Below, piece after piece: positions 25,129 to 32,751 of a stretch of DNA of 32,751 nt. The notes under the pieces were generated by a model that worked only from the letters and a program-made list of their open reading frames with translations, searched no databases and was not told where the DNA came from. The translations under genes and the position numbers were made by a program. This DNA comes from Pseudomonadota bacterium (GTDB lineage: Bacteria > Pseudomonadota > Gammaproteobacteria > Burkholderiales > Ga0077523), in NCBI GenBank assembly GCA_963205165.1, contig CAUJJX010000190.1, positions 1-32,751 of the forward strand, written 5' to 3'. Within the stretch, counting starts at the first letter, position 1, and the number at the start of each line of letters is the position of its first letter.

Positions 25129-25623
25129 TCAGAGCCCGAGCGTGGTGCCGGCGGGACCATCTTCGGAGGCGTTCCAGATCTGTTCGTAGCGCTCGGACAG
25201 CAGGTTCGCGCCCTCCGGATCGTCGATCCCGAAGACCGATCGCGAACCGTCCACATGGAGTCGGTGCAGGTAGTGCCGCCGGTCCACGATCACGAGTGGA
25301 TCGTCGGCCCGGCGCGCCTCGTCGCAGGTACTCCGGACGGTCAGCACATGCCCGAAGGACTCCCGCAGACCGCGCAGCCGCGGCGTCGACCGGACGACGG
25401 ACTCGGCATCGTGCAGTGCGATCCGGACCCGGTTGCGATCCCCCGCCAGGCAGAAGCGGCGGAGGCGGTCGATGCGATCCGGACGGTCCCAGTAGCCACC
25501 GAGTCGGGGTTCGAAGATGTCGATCTGGCGCGTCGCGCGCAGCAGCAGTTCGTCGAGCGCCTGCTGGATCTCGGCTTCGCTTTCGAGCGTACGGCGTACG
25601 GCTGTCGGCGGGGTCTCGCTCAT
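25129..25623 (-). CDS. Conserved protein of unknown function coupled to the JmjC oxygenase gene
   Basis: The 164-aa protein starts at ATG 25623, overlapping the stop of the oxygenase gene by 4 nt; the track ORF is longer because it runs back through that gene in another frame. I recognise no catalytic motif with certainty. The sequence pattern (LLLRATRQIDIFEPRL, NRVRIALHDAESVVRSTPRLRGL, DPLVIVDRRHYLHRLHVDGSRSVFGI) alternates short strands and helices in a way reminiscent of a degenerate phospholipase D-like half-domain, without a complete HxKxxxxD motif. It has no signal peptide or membrane segment. The translational coupling suggests a function related to the upstream hydroxylase, but this is inference. 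Confidence 0.7.
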   Translation of the reverse strand: MSETPPTAVRRTLESEAEIQQALDELLLRATRQIDIFEPRLGGYWDRPDRIDRLRRFCLAGDRNRVRIALHDAESVVRSTPRLRGLRESFGHVLTVRSTCDEARRADDPLVIVDRRHYLHRLHVDGSRSVFGIDDPEGANLLSERYEQIWNASEDGPAGTTLGL

Positions 25624-26765
25624 CCGCGCGCGCTCCTGTCGGTGTCGGTCATCGTGAGGAAGCCGGCCTCGAGCCATTGGTGCAGCAGCCGCAGCACGGG
25701 GTCGGAAATCTCGCCACCGCGCCATTCGCGCCGGTCGGCCAGTGTCTCGAGCGCCGCCGGAACGCCCCGCGGAAACCGGATGCATTCGCCATTGATGTAG
25801 GCGGCCTTCGGCCCGTAAAGAAGAATCGTCCGGCGATCGAGTGCGAGCACCCGGTTCGCCAATGCCTTCCTGAATGCAGCGAACGTCGGCGGGTCTTCCG
25901 GCGGATCGAAGAACACCCGCGCCTTCGGATCCGAGAGATAGCGGCCGAGGAAATCCGCGACATCGCCGCGGGTCCAGCGGACCGCGTCGATCGCTGCATT
26001 CGTGGCGTCGACCATCGCCGCGGGAATCCGGCCGGGCGTCTTCGTCGCGCGCAACCCCGGGTCGGCATATCGCCCGTCGAGCGCGACGCGTTCCGAGACG
26101 TCCGCGAGGAACTGGCCTGCGAGTTCCGCATTCGTCGGCGCCCGGAAACCGATCGAGTACGTGAAGCATTCGTCGATCGCGACACCATCGTGCGCGTACG
26201 TCGGCGGCAGGTAGAGCAGGTCGCCGGGTTCGACGACCATTTCTTCCTCGGGAGCGAAGTCCTTCAGGATCTTCAGAGGCAGGCCCGGACGCAGCGTCAG
26301 GTCGTCCTGGCGGCCGATGCGCCAGCGCCGGCGGCCCGGCCCCTGCAGCAGGAACACATCGTACGAGTCGAAGTGCGGACCCACGCCGCCGCCTGGCGCC
26401 GCGTAGCTCACCATCAGGTCGTCCAGTCGTGCCGCCGGGACGAAGTCGAAACGCCGCAGCAGTCGGTCGGCGGCATCGAGATGCAGGTTCACGCCCTGCA
26501 CGAGCACCGTCCAGTTCCGATCCGGCAGGCGTCGGAAATCGGCGCGCTTGAACGGGCCGTGATCCACCTGCCAGCGGCGACCGTCGCGCACGAGCAGGCG
26601 CGACTCGACGTCGGGGTCGCACGCGAGTTCGAGGATGGAGCGGCGGTCGAGAAAACCTTCGAAGCCTGGCAGCGCGTCGCGGAACAGCTGCGCTTGCCGG
26701 TGCCAGGAGTTGCGCATGAATTGCGCAGGAACGAGGCCGTTGAACGCGGTCTTGGTATGGGTCAT
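25620..26765 (-). CDS. JmjC-type 2-oxoglutarate oxygenase, ribosomal protein uL16 hydroxylase-like (RoxA/YcfD)
   Basis: The 381-aa protein resembles E. coli YcfD/RoxA, which hydroxylates an arginine of ribosomal protein uL16. The iron-binding HxD...H triad is visible: His131 and Asp133 in VGPHFDSYDVFLLQ, and His192 in LPPTYAHDGVAI. The segment LYLPPTYAHDG and the QGPGRRRWRIGRQ strand are characteristic of the ROX group, as is the C-terminal dimerisation and winged-helix part (about 210-381). The ATG at 26765 gives the family N-terminus. The substrate is inferred from the family; other ROX proteins act on different ribosomal targets. It is divergent from the peroxiredoxin gene. Confidence 0.9.
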   Translation of the reverse strand: MTHTKTAFNGLVPAQFMRNSWHRQAQLFRDALPGFEGFLDRRSILELACDPDVESRLLVRDGRRWQVDHGPFKRADFRRLPDRNWTVLVQGVNLHLDAADRLLRRFDFVPAARLDDLMVSYAAPGGGVGPHFDSYDVFLLQGPGRRRWRIGRQDDLTLRPGLPLKILKDFAPEEEMVVEPGDLLYLPPTYAHDGVAIDECFTYSIGFRAPTNAELAGQFLADVSERVALDGRYADPGLRATKTPGRIPAAMVDATNAAIDAVRWTRGDVADFLGRYLSDPKARVFFDPPEDPPTFAAFRKALANRVLALDRRTILLYGPKAAYINGECIRFPRGVPAALETLADRREWRGGEISDPVLRLLHQWLEAGFLTMTDTDRSARG

Positions 26766-27897: not shown

Positions 27898-29070
27898 CTA
27901 CGTGGTCGGCGTCGCCTCCGCCGCCTTGGTCGCGGCCTCCGCGAGTGCCCGCGAATTGCGGTCGTCGCGAAACACGATCGGCTTCATGTTCGATGCAACC
28001 TGCGGCAACTGCGCCTTCGCGACCTGCTCCGTGATCAGGTGGTGATGCGGTGACAGATCGCACACCGGGTCGGCATTGGTCGCATCACCGGTGAGCATGA
28101 AGGCCTGACAGCGGCAGCCGCCGTAGTCCTTTTCCTTCTCGGGGCAGGACCGGCAGGGTTCCTTCATCCAGTCGTCGCCGCGATACGTGTTGAAGGCCGG
28201 CGAATCGTTCCAGATCCAGCCGAGCTCGTGATCGCGGACGTTCGGGAACTCGATGCCGGGCAGCATCCGCGCCTCGTGGCACGGCAGCACGACACCGTCG
28301 GCCGCGATGTTCACGAAGATCGAACCCCAGCCGTTCATGCACGCCTTCGGACGCGTCTCGTAGTAGTCCGGGTTGACGAAGTAGATCTTCATCCTGTCCC
28401 CGACTTTCTCGCGGAACGCATTCGTCACGGCCTCAGCGCGGACGAGCTGGTCGCGCGTCGGCATGAGCTGCTCGCGGTTCTGCATGGCCCACGCGTAGAA
28501 CTGCGTGTTGGCCAGCTCGACGTATTCCGCGCCGAGCTGCTCGGCCATCTCCAGGATCTGCTGCGTGTGATCGAGGTTGTGCCGGTGCATCACGCAGTTG
28601 AAGACCATCGGGTAGTCGTACTTCTGGATCAGCTCGGCCGCGCGTTTCTTCAGCTCGAAGGTCTTCGTGCTCGAGATCCAGTCGTTCATCTCGCGCGTGG
28701 AATCCTGGAAGGACAGCTGGATGTGGTTCAGCCCGCCTTCCTTGAAGGCTGCGATGCGCTTCTCGGTGAGCCCGATGCCCGACGTGATGAGGTTCGTGTA
28801 GTAGCCGAGCCGGCCGGCCTCCGCGACGATGATCTCGAGGTCGTCGCGCATGAGCGGTTCACCGCCCGACAGGCCGAGCTGCACGAGCCCGAGTTCACGT
28901 CCCTGCCGCAGCACGCGGATCCAGTCGTCGGTCGAAAGCTCGGGGCCGAACTTCGTGTAGTCGACCGGGTTGTAGCAGAACACGCAGTGCAGCGGGCACT
29001 TGTACGTGAGCTCCGCGTTCAGCCAGTGCGGCTTAGGCACTGGCGCGCGGACGGATCCAGCCGTTTCCAT
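27898..29070 (-). CDS. pqqE: PqqA peptide cyclase (radical SAM)
   Basis: PqqE joins the Glu and Tyr side chains of PqqA by a radical SAM carbon-carbon crosslink, the first step of PQQ synthesis. The 390-aa protein has the SAM cluster motif CPLHCVFC (Cys25, Cys29, Cys32), GLSGGEPLM, and a C-terminal SPASM domain with auxiliary-cluster cysteines ([40 protein letters not shown]). The ATG at 29070 is chosen because GGAGG lies 6 nt upstream; the track start is 28 codons further out in pqqD shadow. It overlaps the end of pqqD by 38 nt and is last in the pqq operon. Confidence 0.97.
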
Positions 29071-29335
29071 GGGCGACCTCCAGAAAGTCGACGACATCGG
29101 AGCGCAGGTCGGGTGCGCCGGGGAATGCTTCCTGAAGCGCGGCGACGATCGCATTGAGACTGCGCGTGCCGTCGATGCGCTTGAATATCTCGCCGCCGCT
29201 GCCCGGCAGCTTCACCATCCCTTCGGGGAACAGCAGGACGTGGCAGTCCTGGGCGGGTTCCCACTGGAAGCGGTGGTACTTCGCGACGTCGATCGGGGTG
29301 TCGTGATCGAACGGGACGCGCTTCGGTTCGGCCAT
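29033..29335 (-). CDS. pqqD: PQQ biosynthesis peptide chaperone PqqD
   Basis: PqqD binds the PqqA precursor peptide and presents it to PqqE. The 100-aa protein has the expected winged-helix RRE-type pattern ([42 protein letters not shown] and [15 protein letters not shown]). The ATG at 29335 shares one base with the pqqC stop (TGATG); the track ORF of 242 aa extends back through pqqC in another frame. The last 38 nt also encode the start of pqqE and hold its ribosome binding site. Confidence 0.94.
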
Positions 29336-30054
29336 CAGGCGATCTTCCTGTCGCCGATGCCGTAGTTGACCATCATCGCGTCGCACATGGTCCAGAGCAC
29401 ATCGAGCTTGAACTGCAGGATCTCCAGCGCGCGTTCCTGCTGCTCGCGCGTGCGGAAATGGTCGAGCGTCACGCGGAGGCCGTGCTGCACGTCGCGCCGT
29501 GCTTCCGAGAGGCGCTTGCGGAAATACGCGTAGCCGGCCTGGTCGATCCACGGATAGTGCTGCGGCCAGTTGGCGAGGCGCTCCTTGTGGATCTCGGGCG
29601 CGAACATCTCGGTCAGCGACGAGCACACGGCTTCCTGCCACGGACGCGTGCGACCGAAATTGATGTACGCGTCGACGGCGAATCGCACGCCGGGCAGCAC
29701 GTATTTCAGCGACGTCACGTCGTCCCGCGGGATGCCGACGGCGTCCGCGAGCGTGAGCCACGCCTCGATGCCGCCCTCGTCGCCCTGCGTGCCGTCGTGG
29801 TCGATGATCCGCTGGATCCAGAGCCGGCGATGGTCGCGGTCGGGCATGTTCGCCATGATCGCGGCGTCCTTGATGGGGATCGCGATCTGGTAATAGAAGC
29901 GGTTGCAGACCCAGCCGCGGATCTGTTCCTTCGTGAGGCCGCCGCTGTTCATCGCGACGTGGTACGGGTGATAGATGTGATAGCGCTCACCCTTCGCGCG
30001 CAGCCGCTGCTCGAATTCTTCCGCGCTCCACGGCAGGTTCTCGGCGATGCCCAT
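29335..30054 (-). CDS. pqqC: Pyrroloquinoline-quinone synthase PqqC
   Basis: PqqC catalyses the final cofactor-free ring closure and oxidation to PQQ. The 239-aa protein is a heme-oxygenase-fold enzyme with the conserved blocks [52 protein letters not shown] and [13 protein letters not shown], containing the active-site His and Tyr residues known for the family. I prefer ATG 30054, which is preceded by ACGGAGA; the track uses GTG 30075, which overlaps the pqqB stop (GTGA) and would add seven residues. Either start keeps the whole enzyme. Confidence 0.96.
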
Positions 30055-30071
30055 GCTGGTTGTCTCCGTGT

Positions 30072-30986
30072 TCACAGTTCGATGTCCATGCCGTCGTACG
30101 AGACCTCGATGCCGGCGCGATCGAGTTCGGCACGCTGCGGCGAGTCCTCGTCGAGGATCGGATTGGTGTTGTTGATGTGGATGAGGATCTTCCGGCCGGC
30201 CCGCAGCGGACGCAGCACCTCGATCATGCCGGCGGGGCCGGATTGCGGCAGGTGGCCGATGTCGCGCGCGCGCTTCTTCGAGATGCCGAGCGTGACCATC
30301 TCGTCGTCCGTCCAGAAGGTGCCGTCGACCATGACGCAGTCGGCTTCTTCCATCAGCGGGACGATGTGCGGCTCGATCTCGCCGAGGCCCGGCGCGTAGA
30401 ACAGCGTGCGGCCGGTGCGCGTGTCGCGGATGCGCATCCCGATGTTGTCGCCGATGTGCGGATTGTCGCGATGGGGCGAGTAGGGCGGCGCCTTGCTCTT
30501 GAGCGGCACCGCCGTGAATTCGAGATGCTCGCCACCCACCGGCTGGAAGCTCTCGCCCGACGCGATCGGCAGCTGGTGCCAGTTCACGCCGCAGTAGTGC
30601 CCGAGGATGTTGAACAGCGGATTGCCGGTCGTCATGTCCTCGCGGACCATGTCCGTGCAGTACAGCTCGAGCGGCTTGCCCTCGCGCAGCATCAGCAGGC
30701 CCGTCGTGTGATCGATCTGGCCGTCCATCAGGACGACCGAGCGGATGCCCGTGTCGCGCAGCGCGCGCGCCGGCTGCAGCGCCGGAAAGCTGCGGATCTG
30801 CTGGAGGATGTCGGGCGATGCGTTGAACAGCACCCAGTCGGTGCCGTTGCCGCTCACCGTGATCGACGACTGCGTGCGCGCCTTCGCGCGGAGCGTGCCC
30901 TTGCGCAGACCGTCACAGTTGGGACAGTTGCAGTTCCACTGCGGGAAACCGCCGCCGGCGGCGGCGCCGAGTACGCGAATCTTCAT
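30072..30986 (-). CDS. pqqB: PqqB, metallo-beta-lactamase-fold PQQ biosynthesis hydroxylase
   Basis: PqqB is an MBL-fold metalloprotein that hydroxylates the tyrosine-derived part of the PqqE/PqqF product. The 304-aa length is standard. The N-terminus [24 protein letters not shown] is diagnostic, with the zinc-site cysteines, followed by [31 protein letters not shown] and the terminal [14 protein letters not shown]. The start is ATG 30986; the track adds 41 unrelated residues from the pqqA-pqqB spacer. It begins 236 nt after the pqqA stop, beyond a strong hairpin. Confidence 0.97.
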
Positions 30987-31122: not shown

Positions 31123-31176
31123 GCCTCGCGACAGATCGCCGGAAGACCGGATCGCCTTGCGGCCGATCGTCGAAGA

Positions 31177-31206
31177 CGCGAAGGCCCCGTTGAAGGGGCC
31201 TTCGCG
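31177..31206 (-). terminator. Hairpin (attenuator-like) between pqqA and pqqB
   Basis: CGCGAAGGCCCC (31177-31188) and GGGGCCTTCGCG (31195-31206) make a perfect 12-bp stem with a GTTGAA loop, beginning 16 nt after the pqqA stop on the minus strand. Only a weak TCTT follows, so partial termination or 3'-end protection of a pqqA transcript is more likely than full termination. This would let pqqA be made in excess over pqqBCDE. Confidence 0.7.
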
Positions 31207-31222
31207 CGTCACCACGCCGCGA

Positions 31223-31294
31223 TCAGCGGTTGGCGATGTACATCGTGACTTCGAAGCCGAAACGCATTTCGGTGTACTCAGGCTTGCTCCACAT
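31223..31294 (-). CDS. pqqA: PQQ precursor peptide PqqA
   Basis: This 23-aa peptide is the substrate from which PQQ is built, and is too short for the ORF track. It begins MWSKPEYTEMRF and contains the essential E-V-T-M-Y motif, whose Glu (residue 15) and Tyr (residue 19) are crosslinked by PqqE; it ends IANR. GGAGG (31300-31304) lies 5 nt before the ATG. It heads the minus-strand pqqABCDE set. No pqqF protease gene is in the window, so cleavage of the peptide must rely on a protease elsewhere. Confidence 0.97.
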   Translation of the reverse strand: MWSKPEYTEMRFGFEVTMYIANR

Positions 31295-31425
31295 GACAAC
31301 CTCCGAATGTTAGAGTTGAAATGACTCGCGCGAAGTTCTTGTGGTCTGTTGTCCGACCGTCGCGCTTTCCGTGATCCGCCGTCGACCCCTCTCCGAGACG
31401 CTGCGCCGATCGCGCCCCGCTCATC

Positions 31426-31444
31426 GATTCGTTCCCGTCGAATC
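31426..31444. repeat. Dyad GATTCG-N7-CGAATC in the pqqA / TonB-like divergent region
   Basis: A perfect 6-bp inverted repeat with a 7-nt spacer lies about 130 nt upstream of the pqqA start and 90 nt upstream of the TonB-like start. The 19-nt span and spacing suit a dimeric regulator, but short dyads also arise by chance. Confidence 0.35.
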
Positions 31445-31503
31445 ACGGTCGTTAGTGTCTTGGATGCACCTGCTCGTTCCCACGAAAAAATCATCAAAGA
31501 GCG

Positions 31504-31520
31504 CTCATGATTTTCATGAG
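31504..31520. promoter_or_regulatory. 17-bp palindrome, candidate operator
   Basis: CTCATGA-TTT-TCATGAG is a perfect 7-bp inverted repeat around TTT, placed 11 nt before the GTG of the TonB-like ORF, in a locally AT-richer stretch (31482-31520). The form suits a helix-turn-helix dimer or a short RNA hairpin at the ribosome site. No known regulator box is matched with certainty. Confidence 0.5.
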
Positions 31521-31531
31521 AACCGGACCTC

Positions 31532-32751
31532 GTGCGTGATCCCCTGAGCACGTCGTCGGGCTCGGCGAACGATCCCGGCGCGTCCGGTGTCGCGGCCGCG
31601 CGCACGCTCGATGGCGCGTCGGCCCGCGGTGATGCGGTCGGTGCGGCGTCGGGCCGCAGTCCGATCGGCGCGTCGGCCGATCGCGCCGCGACGGTTGTCG
31701 TGACCGAGTGGTACGAGGAACGTACCTTCCGCTACGCGCTGATCGCATCGCTCGTCGCGCACATCGCGTTCGTCGTGTGCGGCCCGTCGCTGAAGACGCC
31801 GACGCCACCGCCGCGCAAGGCGATCGAAGTGCGCCTGATCGAAGCGCCACCACCACCGCCGCCGCCCGAACCCGAACCGCCCGAGCCGGTGCCCGAACCG
31901 CCGAAGGTGGTCATCCCGAAGAAGGTCGCGGCGAAGCAGGTGCCGTCGAAGAAGACCGAGGCGAGGAAGACCGCGGTGAAGCCCGGTACGCCCCCCGCGC
32001 CGACGCCTCCGCAGCGGATCATTCCCGCACCGCAGCCGATGCCCGCGATCGCGCGACCGACGCCTGCGCCGCCGCGCGTCGACCGCCAGGCGCCGACGCC
32101 GACCGTCGCGCGTCCCGAGGCGCAGCCGCTGCCGCAACTCGCCGCGCGGCCCGATCTCGCGCCGCGTCCCGACCTGCCCGCACCGCGACGGGCCGATGCG
32201 CCCGTCCTCGCCGATGCACCTGCGCGGCCGGCGGTGGCGGCCCCGCGCGCCGACGCACGTCCCGACCTGCCGCGACTCGAGGCGCGCCCCGCCATCGCAC
32301 CGCCGACCGTGCAGCCGCAACTGCGCGCCGATGCGCGACCGGAACCGCATCGCGACGTCCGTCCCGAGGTCCGGTCGCCGACCGCGCCGACGATCGCCGC
32401 ATCACCCGACGCGCCGCGCCCGCAGCTGCGTGACGATGCGGCGGCGCTGCCTTCCGTGGCACGTCCGGCGCCGGCGGCAGTGCCGCGACCCGAGGCCCGG
32501 CCGGATGTGCAGTCCATCGCGAGACCATCGCTCGCGCCGGCCCCCGCGGTCGCGTCGCACGCCGAGCCCCGTCATGCGGCTGCCGATCCATTGCCCGCGC
32601 GCCCGGTGCTGCGCGACGCGCCGACCGCGCCGCGTCCGGAGATCCGCCCCGAACTCCAGGCGCCGGCGCGTCCGTCGCTCGCGCCCGCGGTCGCGTCGCA
32701 CGCCGAGCCCCGTCACGCCGCGGCCGATCCTTCAGCCGCGCGCCCGGTGCT
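31532..32751 (+). CDS. TonB-like envelope protein with very long Pro/Ala/Arg-rich linker (3' partial)
   Basis: A frame open from GTG 31532 to the end of the window (over 400 codons) is missing from the ORF track because it has no stop. A 56-residue Ser/Ala/Gly-rich N-terminus precedes VTEWYEERTFRYALIASLVAHIAFVV, a single N-terminal membrane anchor, then KAIEVRLIEAPPPPPPPEPEPPEPVPEPPK, the typical TonB proline-glutamate/lysine start. Next comes a long linker dominated by RPDLAPRPDLP, ARPEA and similar motifs with internal repeats. The C-terminal TonB domain is beyond the window, so energy transduction is inferred; a TolA-like or other spanning protein is possible. GTG 31700 (TEWYEERTF) is an alternative start. 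Minus-strand ORFs here are shadows of the repeats. Confidence 0.75.
   Translation, partial: MRDPLSTSSGSANDPGASGVAAARTLDGASARGDAVGAASGRSPIGASADRAATVVVTEWYEERTFRYALIASLVAHIAFVVCGPSLKTPTPPPRKAIEVRLIEAPPPPPPPEPEPPEPVPEPPKVVIPKKVAAKQVPSKKTEARKTAVKPGTPPAPTPPQRIIPAPQPMPAIARPTPAPPRVDRQAPTPTVARPEAQPLPQLAARPDLAPRPDLPAPRRADAPVLADAPARPAVAAPRADARPDLPRLEARPAIAPPTVQPQLRADARPEPHRDVRPEVRSPTAPTIAASPDAPRPQLRDDAAALPSVARPAPAAVPRPEARPDVQSIARPSLAPAPAVASHAEPRHAAADPLPARPVLRDAPTAPRPEIRPELQAPARPSLAPAVASHAEPRHAAADPSAARPV
32543..32715 (+). repeat. In-frame direct repeat within the TonB-like linker
   Basis: A 32-nt sequence beginning CCCGCGGTCGCGTCG occurs identically at 32543-32574 and 32684-32715, 141 nt (47 codons) apart. 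Flanking bases are also similar (SLAPA before, AAADP and ARPVL after), so the unit of duplication is larger than the exact match and continues to the window end. Confidence 0.85.

Follow-up and report, generated by a model that had tools for sequence, protein, structure and literature searches.

A pqq locus of Burkholderiales that includes the gene for a putative TonB-class energy transducer with a very long linker

Organization of the locus

The stretch of DNA analyzed here, referred to as the window, is 32,751 nucleotides long and constitutes an entire contig (G000:C190, below C190) of a 409-contig draft genome of a member of the Burkholderiales. Its right end falls inside an open reading frame, and is preceded by pqq genes that are all transcribed leftward. 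The following features define this part of the window:

27,898-29,154, minus strand: pqqE (TIGR02109, 518.3 bits).
29,335-30,075, minus strand: pqqC (TIGR02111, 369.9 bits).
30,072-30,986, minus strand: pqqB (TIGR02108, 433.5 bits).
31,223-31,294, minus strand: pqqA1 (23 residues), recognized by its sequence, which matches the pqqA copies on contig C38.
31,504-31,520, no strand assigned: palindrome CTCATGATTTTCATGAG between pqqA1 and tonB, a candidate response-regulator operator.
31,532-32,751, plus strand: tonB, 5' part, an open frame continued on the minus strand of C38, with orthologues in nine congeners.

The initial annotation had described a frame of more than 400 codons, unfinished at the window edge, and the frame is indeed open from the GTG at 31,532 to the last base (406 codons). 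The remaining half of tonB was located at one end of another contig of this draft genome, C38 (minus strand, L010:7296-6190), which carries the same linker repeat as the end of the window and in which the frame runs to a stop at L010:6190. The shortest in-frame join of both contigs, made in this analysis and not by the assembler, gives a TonB of 771 residues, a value that is a minimum because the break lies within an array of 141-nt repeats and more units may be missing. A misjoin, either because C190 and C38 are not adjacent or because the repeats were wrongly assembled, would be in keeping with an assembly that breaks inside a repeat and an overlap of just 11 nt; however, both the reading frame and the repeat phase are preserved across the junction and the nine congeners show the identical gene order, unbroken, which makes this explanation very unlikely.

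In these nine congeners an uninterrupted orthologous frame of 419 to 690 codons, counted from stop to stop, occupies the same place between pqqA and the prolyl aminopeptidase gene, and the dN/dS values of the linker in four pairs were 0.19, 0.09, 0.06 and 0.08. A chance open frame in G+C-rich DNA was ruled out by these two results. The true start of tonB could be 3' of 31,532, in which case only the cytoplasmic tail would change: the GTG starts of the two closest relatives align with 31,532, and in some other families tonB starts only about 17 residues ahead of the conserved W that precedes the membrane anchor.

Downstream of tonB, C38 includes the genes for a prolyl aminopeptidase (TIGR01249), a PAS sensor kinase and a response regulator of the GacA/UhpA type, followed by two pqqA copies and a PqqU-like receptor gene that is cut by the contig end. 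The arrangement consisting of leftward pqqE..CBA, the palindrome, and rightward tonB, prolyl aminopeptidase, sensor kinase, response regulator and pqqA2 is unbroken in all nine congeners, and a PqqU-type receptor gene comes next in eight of them, L057 being without it. The same gene order is also found in other Burkholderiales families, where tonB may be present with no PqqU gene within the few kilobases read (L207, L208 and L209 are examples). Matches to the kinase, with E values up to 1e-100, were found in 53 of 399 genomes of the order, and in some of the more distant ones the stretch read includes the kinase and the regulator without pqq or tonB genes.

Other characteristics of the region were recorded. 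There are three pqqA copies in G000, the extra ones being located behind their own palindrome beside the response regulator gene, as is also the case in L201, L209 and L210. The prolyl aminopeptidase gene (L010:5214-6278, minus strand) and its orthologues always lie between tonB and the kinase gene in intact loci, and the enzyme might help process the PqqA peptide. A gene for a JmjC/ROXA-like oxygenase and an overlapping DUF7931 frame (25,129-26,765, minus strand) adjoin the pqq genes, beside which the JmjC gene is retained in most congeners. The region between 9,917 and 21,078 is an ordinary flagellar cluster (fliF, fliG, fliI, fliK, fliL, fliM, fliN, fliP, fliR).

Features of the TonB protein

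From the N- to the C-terminus the joined protein has the order cytoplasmic tail, SxxxH anchor, D-box, domain II linker and TonB_C. The part encoded in the window includes:

31,730-31,792, plus strand: membrane anchor with SxxxH (residues 67-87; S73 and H77), from hydropathy and sequence.
31,823-31,843, plus strand: D-box IEVRLIE (residues 98-104), the predicted grip of ExbD according to a published pattern.
31,844-32,751, plus strand: first part of the Pro/Ala/Arg linker (domain II).
32,535-32,610, plus strand: linker repeat copy 1, a 76-nt match; the unit is 141 nt, or 47 residues.
32,676-32,751, plus strand: linker repeat copy 2, where the assembly is interrupted.

The single membrane anchor that had been placed near residue 65 corresponds to the only hydrophobic segment (about residues 65-87), which holds S73xxxH77, the S and H of the SHLS motif, and is the same in relatives. 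The D-box is flanked by prolines and matches the published hydrophobic/hydrophilic pattern (PMC10907165). Beyond 32,751 there is no early stop, and the frame leads to a folded C-terminal domain, which in profile searches scored 66.6 bits with PF03544 (TonB_C; cut-off 24.6) and 61.8 bits with TIGR01352 (cut-off 27.1), and whose best PDB sequence match was HasB (3.9e-9). For the C-terminal 124 residues, an AlphaFold model of moderate confidence (mean pLDDT 72.7) predicts an extra helix before the core, as in HasB, and a fold search with this model returned Helicobacter pylori TonB first and HasB second. Judged by its sequence, the frame in the window is the first half of a putative TonB-class energy transducer, TonB being the protein that passes energy from the inner membrane to a transporter of the outer membrane.

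The initial annotation had also considered a different envelope-spanning protein. A TolA-like product would agree with the length of domain II, since long versions of this domain, of 110-335 residues, are more usual in TolA (PMC12204202), and HasB structurally resembles TolA (PMC3602595). On the other hand, both TonB profiles are above their cut-offs, a TolA profile was not reported, and the SxxxH anchor and the D-box are present; the locus lacks tol-pal genes, its neighbours being the pqq genes, the peptidase, the two-component system and a receptor that is TonB-dependent. A TolA/AgmX-like protein was therefore ruled out by the profiles and the neighbour genes, and we regard a TolA-like or any other envelope-spanning protein as highly improbable.

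Length, repeats and composition of domain II

Counted from the end of the anchor to the C-terminal domain, domain II has at least 593 residues, of which 24% are Pro, and 74% of the successive prolines are at most five positions apart. The description of a TonB-like protein with an exceptionally long linker was thus accurate. In a 2025 survey, domain II of proteobacterial TonB proteins ranged from 40 to 245 residues with a median of 113 (PMC12204202), so that the value found here is over twice the longest of that survey, the domain boundaries and sampling of which differ from ours. In other genomes, pqq-locus TonB proteins have linkers of about 87-522 residues, with 514-522 in two relatives, while most other anchored TonBs examined have linkers of about 90-170 residues. 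A TonB found without other pqq-locus genes (L167) has a domain II of about 420 residues; long linkers are therefore not unique to the pqq locus. Long TonB frames of 837, 669, 568 and 529 codons from stop to stop, found elsewhere in the order, were discarded, as they are mostly upstream read-through and have ordinary or no linkers. At L013, L028, L030 and L031, in several congeners, TonB_C comes almost directly after a hydrophobic N-terminal segment with hardly any linker.

The in-frame repeats noticed earlier in the linker are copies of the 47-residue unit: the two copies in the window are 87% identical and lie 141 nt apart, in frame, and contig C38 begins with a third, more diverged unit. A comparison of repeat counts between the sister species of L060 and L061 showed that the linker of L061 has one additional clean 48-residue unit, besides one single-residue gap. 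The proposal of an adjustable length is consequently borne out between species and at that level only, not within a population. The Arg-rich composition, which had been considered unusual, can be explained in simpler terms. The G+C content of the genomes is about 66%, and Lys is more frequent in two homologues whose loci have 58-60% G+C; the use of Arg for Lys fits the high G+C content, which suffices as an explanation, and a special adaptation was discarded.

As linkers of about 87-522 residues are found in the same gene order, the locus as such does not require a long arm, which is an elaboration that a particular lineage has made to a conserved TonB of the pqq locus. The length could have resulted from functionless slippage in G+C-rich repeats, with a disordered linker of any sufficient length being tolerated, an explanation that concerns length alone and is compatible with a TonB dedicated to PQQ. 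The wide range of linkers within one gene order and the two sister species that are one whole unit apart are in its favour, but all congeners with an intact locus have a linker well above the published median, and the dN/dS values of 0.06-0.19 indicate that the sequence is not free. We give slippage an even chance. A more doubtful proposal is that domain II of a PQQ-dedicated TonB acts as a long flexible tether, not as a rigid rod that spans the periplasm, with a reach that would be tuned by gain or loss of units of about 47 residues. A rough polymer estimate gives a disordered chain of 593 residues an end-to-end distance of about 23 nm versus about 184 nm when fully extended, and the width given for the periplasm is 10-20 nm (PMC3602595). 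Functionless slippage is at least as likely as such tuning, and a literature search on TonB length and osmolarity returned nothing useful.

Candidate regulation and proposed role

The palindrome CTCATGAnnnTCATGAG is present in the gap between pqqA1 and tonB and upstream of both pqqA copies on C38. Four sites with no more than one mismatch were found in G000, versus 0.15 expected from the base composition and none for a reversed control pattern, and in most loci examined the palindrome is kept at these two places with 0-2 mismatches. In G000 it ends 11 nt ahead of the tonB GTG, and several other families have a larger gap to the tonB start. A scan of 31,150-31,700 for sigma-70 promoters and terminators gave no match. 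Through this palindrome, to which the regulator would bind, the two-component system of the locus probably controls the pqqA copies and perhaps also tonB. The genes that share it would make up a candidate regulon.

The fourth site of G000 (about 8528 of L171, G000:C102:13527) lies upstream of a DUF1800 gene, as do those at 3869 of L191 (G008) and 3436 of L193 (G007), all with 0-1 mismatch; in G008 a DUF1501 gene follows. The DUF1800 gene is an additional candidate target of the PQQ regulator; a literature search for a link between DUF1800 or DUF1501 and PQQ returned nothing useful.

The G000 receptor matched Escherichia coli PqqU with an E value of 1.5e-101 and scored 409 bits with NF041535, below the 1200-bit cut-off; its sequence is incomplete at the contig end. 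The residues F/Y99, R304 and R365 (E. coli numbering), given as the signature of PqqU in the sections of Munder et al. 2025 consulted (PMC12124388), were found in 15 of the 15 linked receptors checked, as F, R and R in G000. The same sections describe synteny of pqqU with pqq genes in four Burkholderiales genomes; no reference to a TonB linked with them was found there. At L165 (G077:C5), in another family, a PqqU gene with the signature comes immediately after a tonB frame, in a stretch from which the searched pqq genes are absent. The exbB and exbD genes sought downstream were not found in the locus, where the gene next to tonB is that of the prolyl aminopeptidase. Five ExbB/ExbD-type pairs are encoded elsewhere in G000, and at least one of these may be TolQR.

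We propose, with a probability of roughly 0.68, that this protein is a TonB-class transducer whose main partner is the PqqU-type receptor encoded in its own locus. By analogy with HasB and haem, it would most likely be a TonB paralogue for PQQ recapture that works with ExbBD encoded elsewhere. The N-terminal SxxxH helix would sit in that ExbBD motor, the D-box would be gripped by ExbD just outside the inner membrane, and the very long, flexible Pro/Ala/Arg linker would cross the periplasm. The C-terminal domain would then bind the Ton box of PqqU and open it, and PQQ that the cell has lost or that neighbours have produced would be drawn back into the periplasm. Since PqqU is absent in L057 and, in several other families, from the few kilobases read around the locus, the partner could be a different receptor or be encoded at another site.

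The pqq-locus tonB genes with no PqqU nearby would also be accounted for by a general-purpose TonB, shared among several receptors, that is merely located there, and E. coli TonB does serve PqqU and other receptors (PMC11658791). This is unlikely, considering that G000 has four other TonB_C proteins, one of them encoded beside ExbB/ExbD on C59, that the pqq-linked tonB holds its place across families, and that the tonB-pqqU pair also occurs without pqq genes at L165. For a transducer serving mainly PqqU, the closest known system is HasB of Serratia marcescens, a TonB paralogue that is dedicated to one receptor (HasR) and encoded with it, as the present protein probably is with PqqU; it belongs to a haem locus and its Pro-rich region has about 120 residues (PMC3602595), in contrast to the PQQ locus and the domain II of at least 593 residues described here. 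Ordinary proteobacterial TonB proteins share the SxxxH anchor, the D-box, the Pro-rich domain II and TonB_C, and differ in the length of domain II (40-245 residues, PMC12204202). The receptor homologue shares the signature residues of E. coli PqqU (YncD), but E. coli makes no PQQ and its PqqU uses a shared TonB, whereas here the pqq locus has its own tonB.

The very long TonB and its repeats stand as the initial annotation had them, and the context of PQQ biosynthesis and uptake, which it had missed, is added here. One conserved locus brings together the biosynthesis of the cofactor PQQ and, probably, its recapture, along with a linked energy transducer and a two-component switch. It also provides natural TonBs with constant neighbours and with linkers that vary from ordinary lengths to more than double the maximum of the survey, a series that makes the transfer of force across the periplasm, by a stiff rod or by a flexible tether, directly testable.
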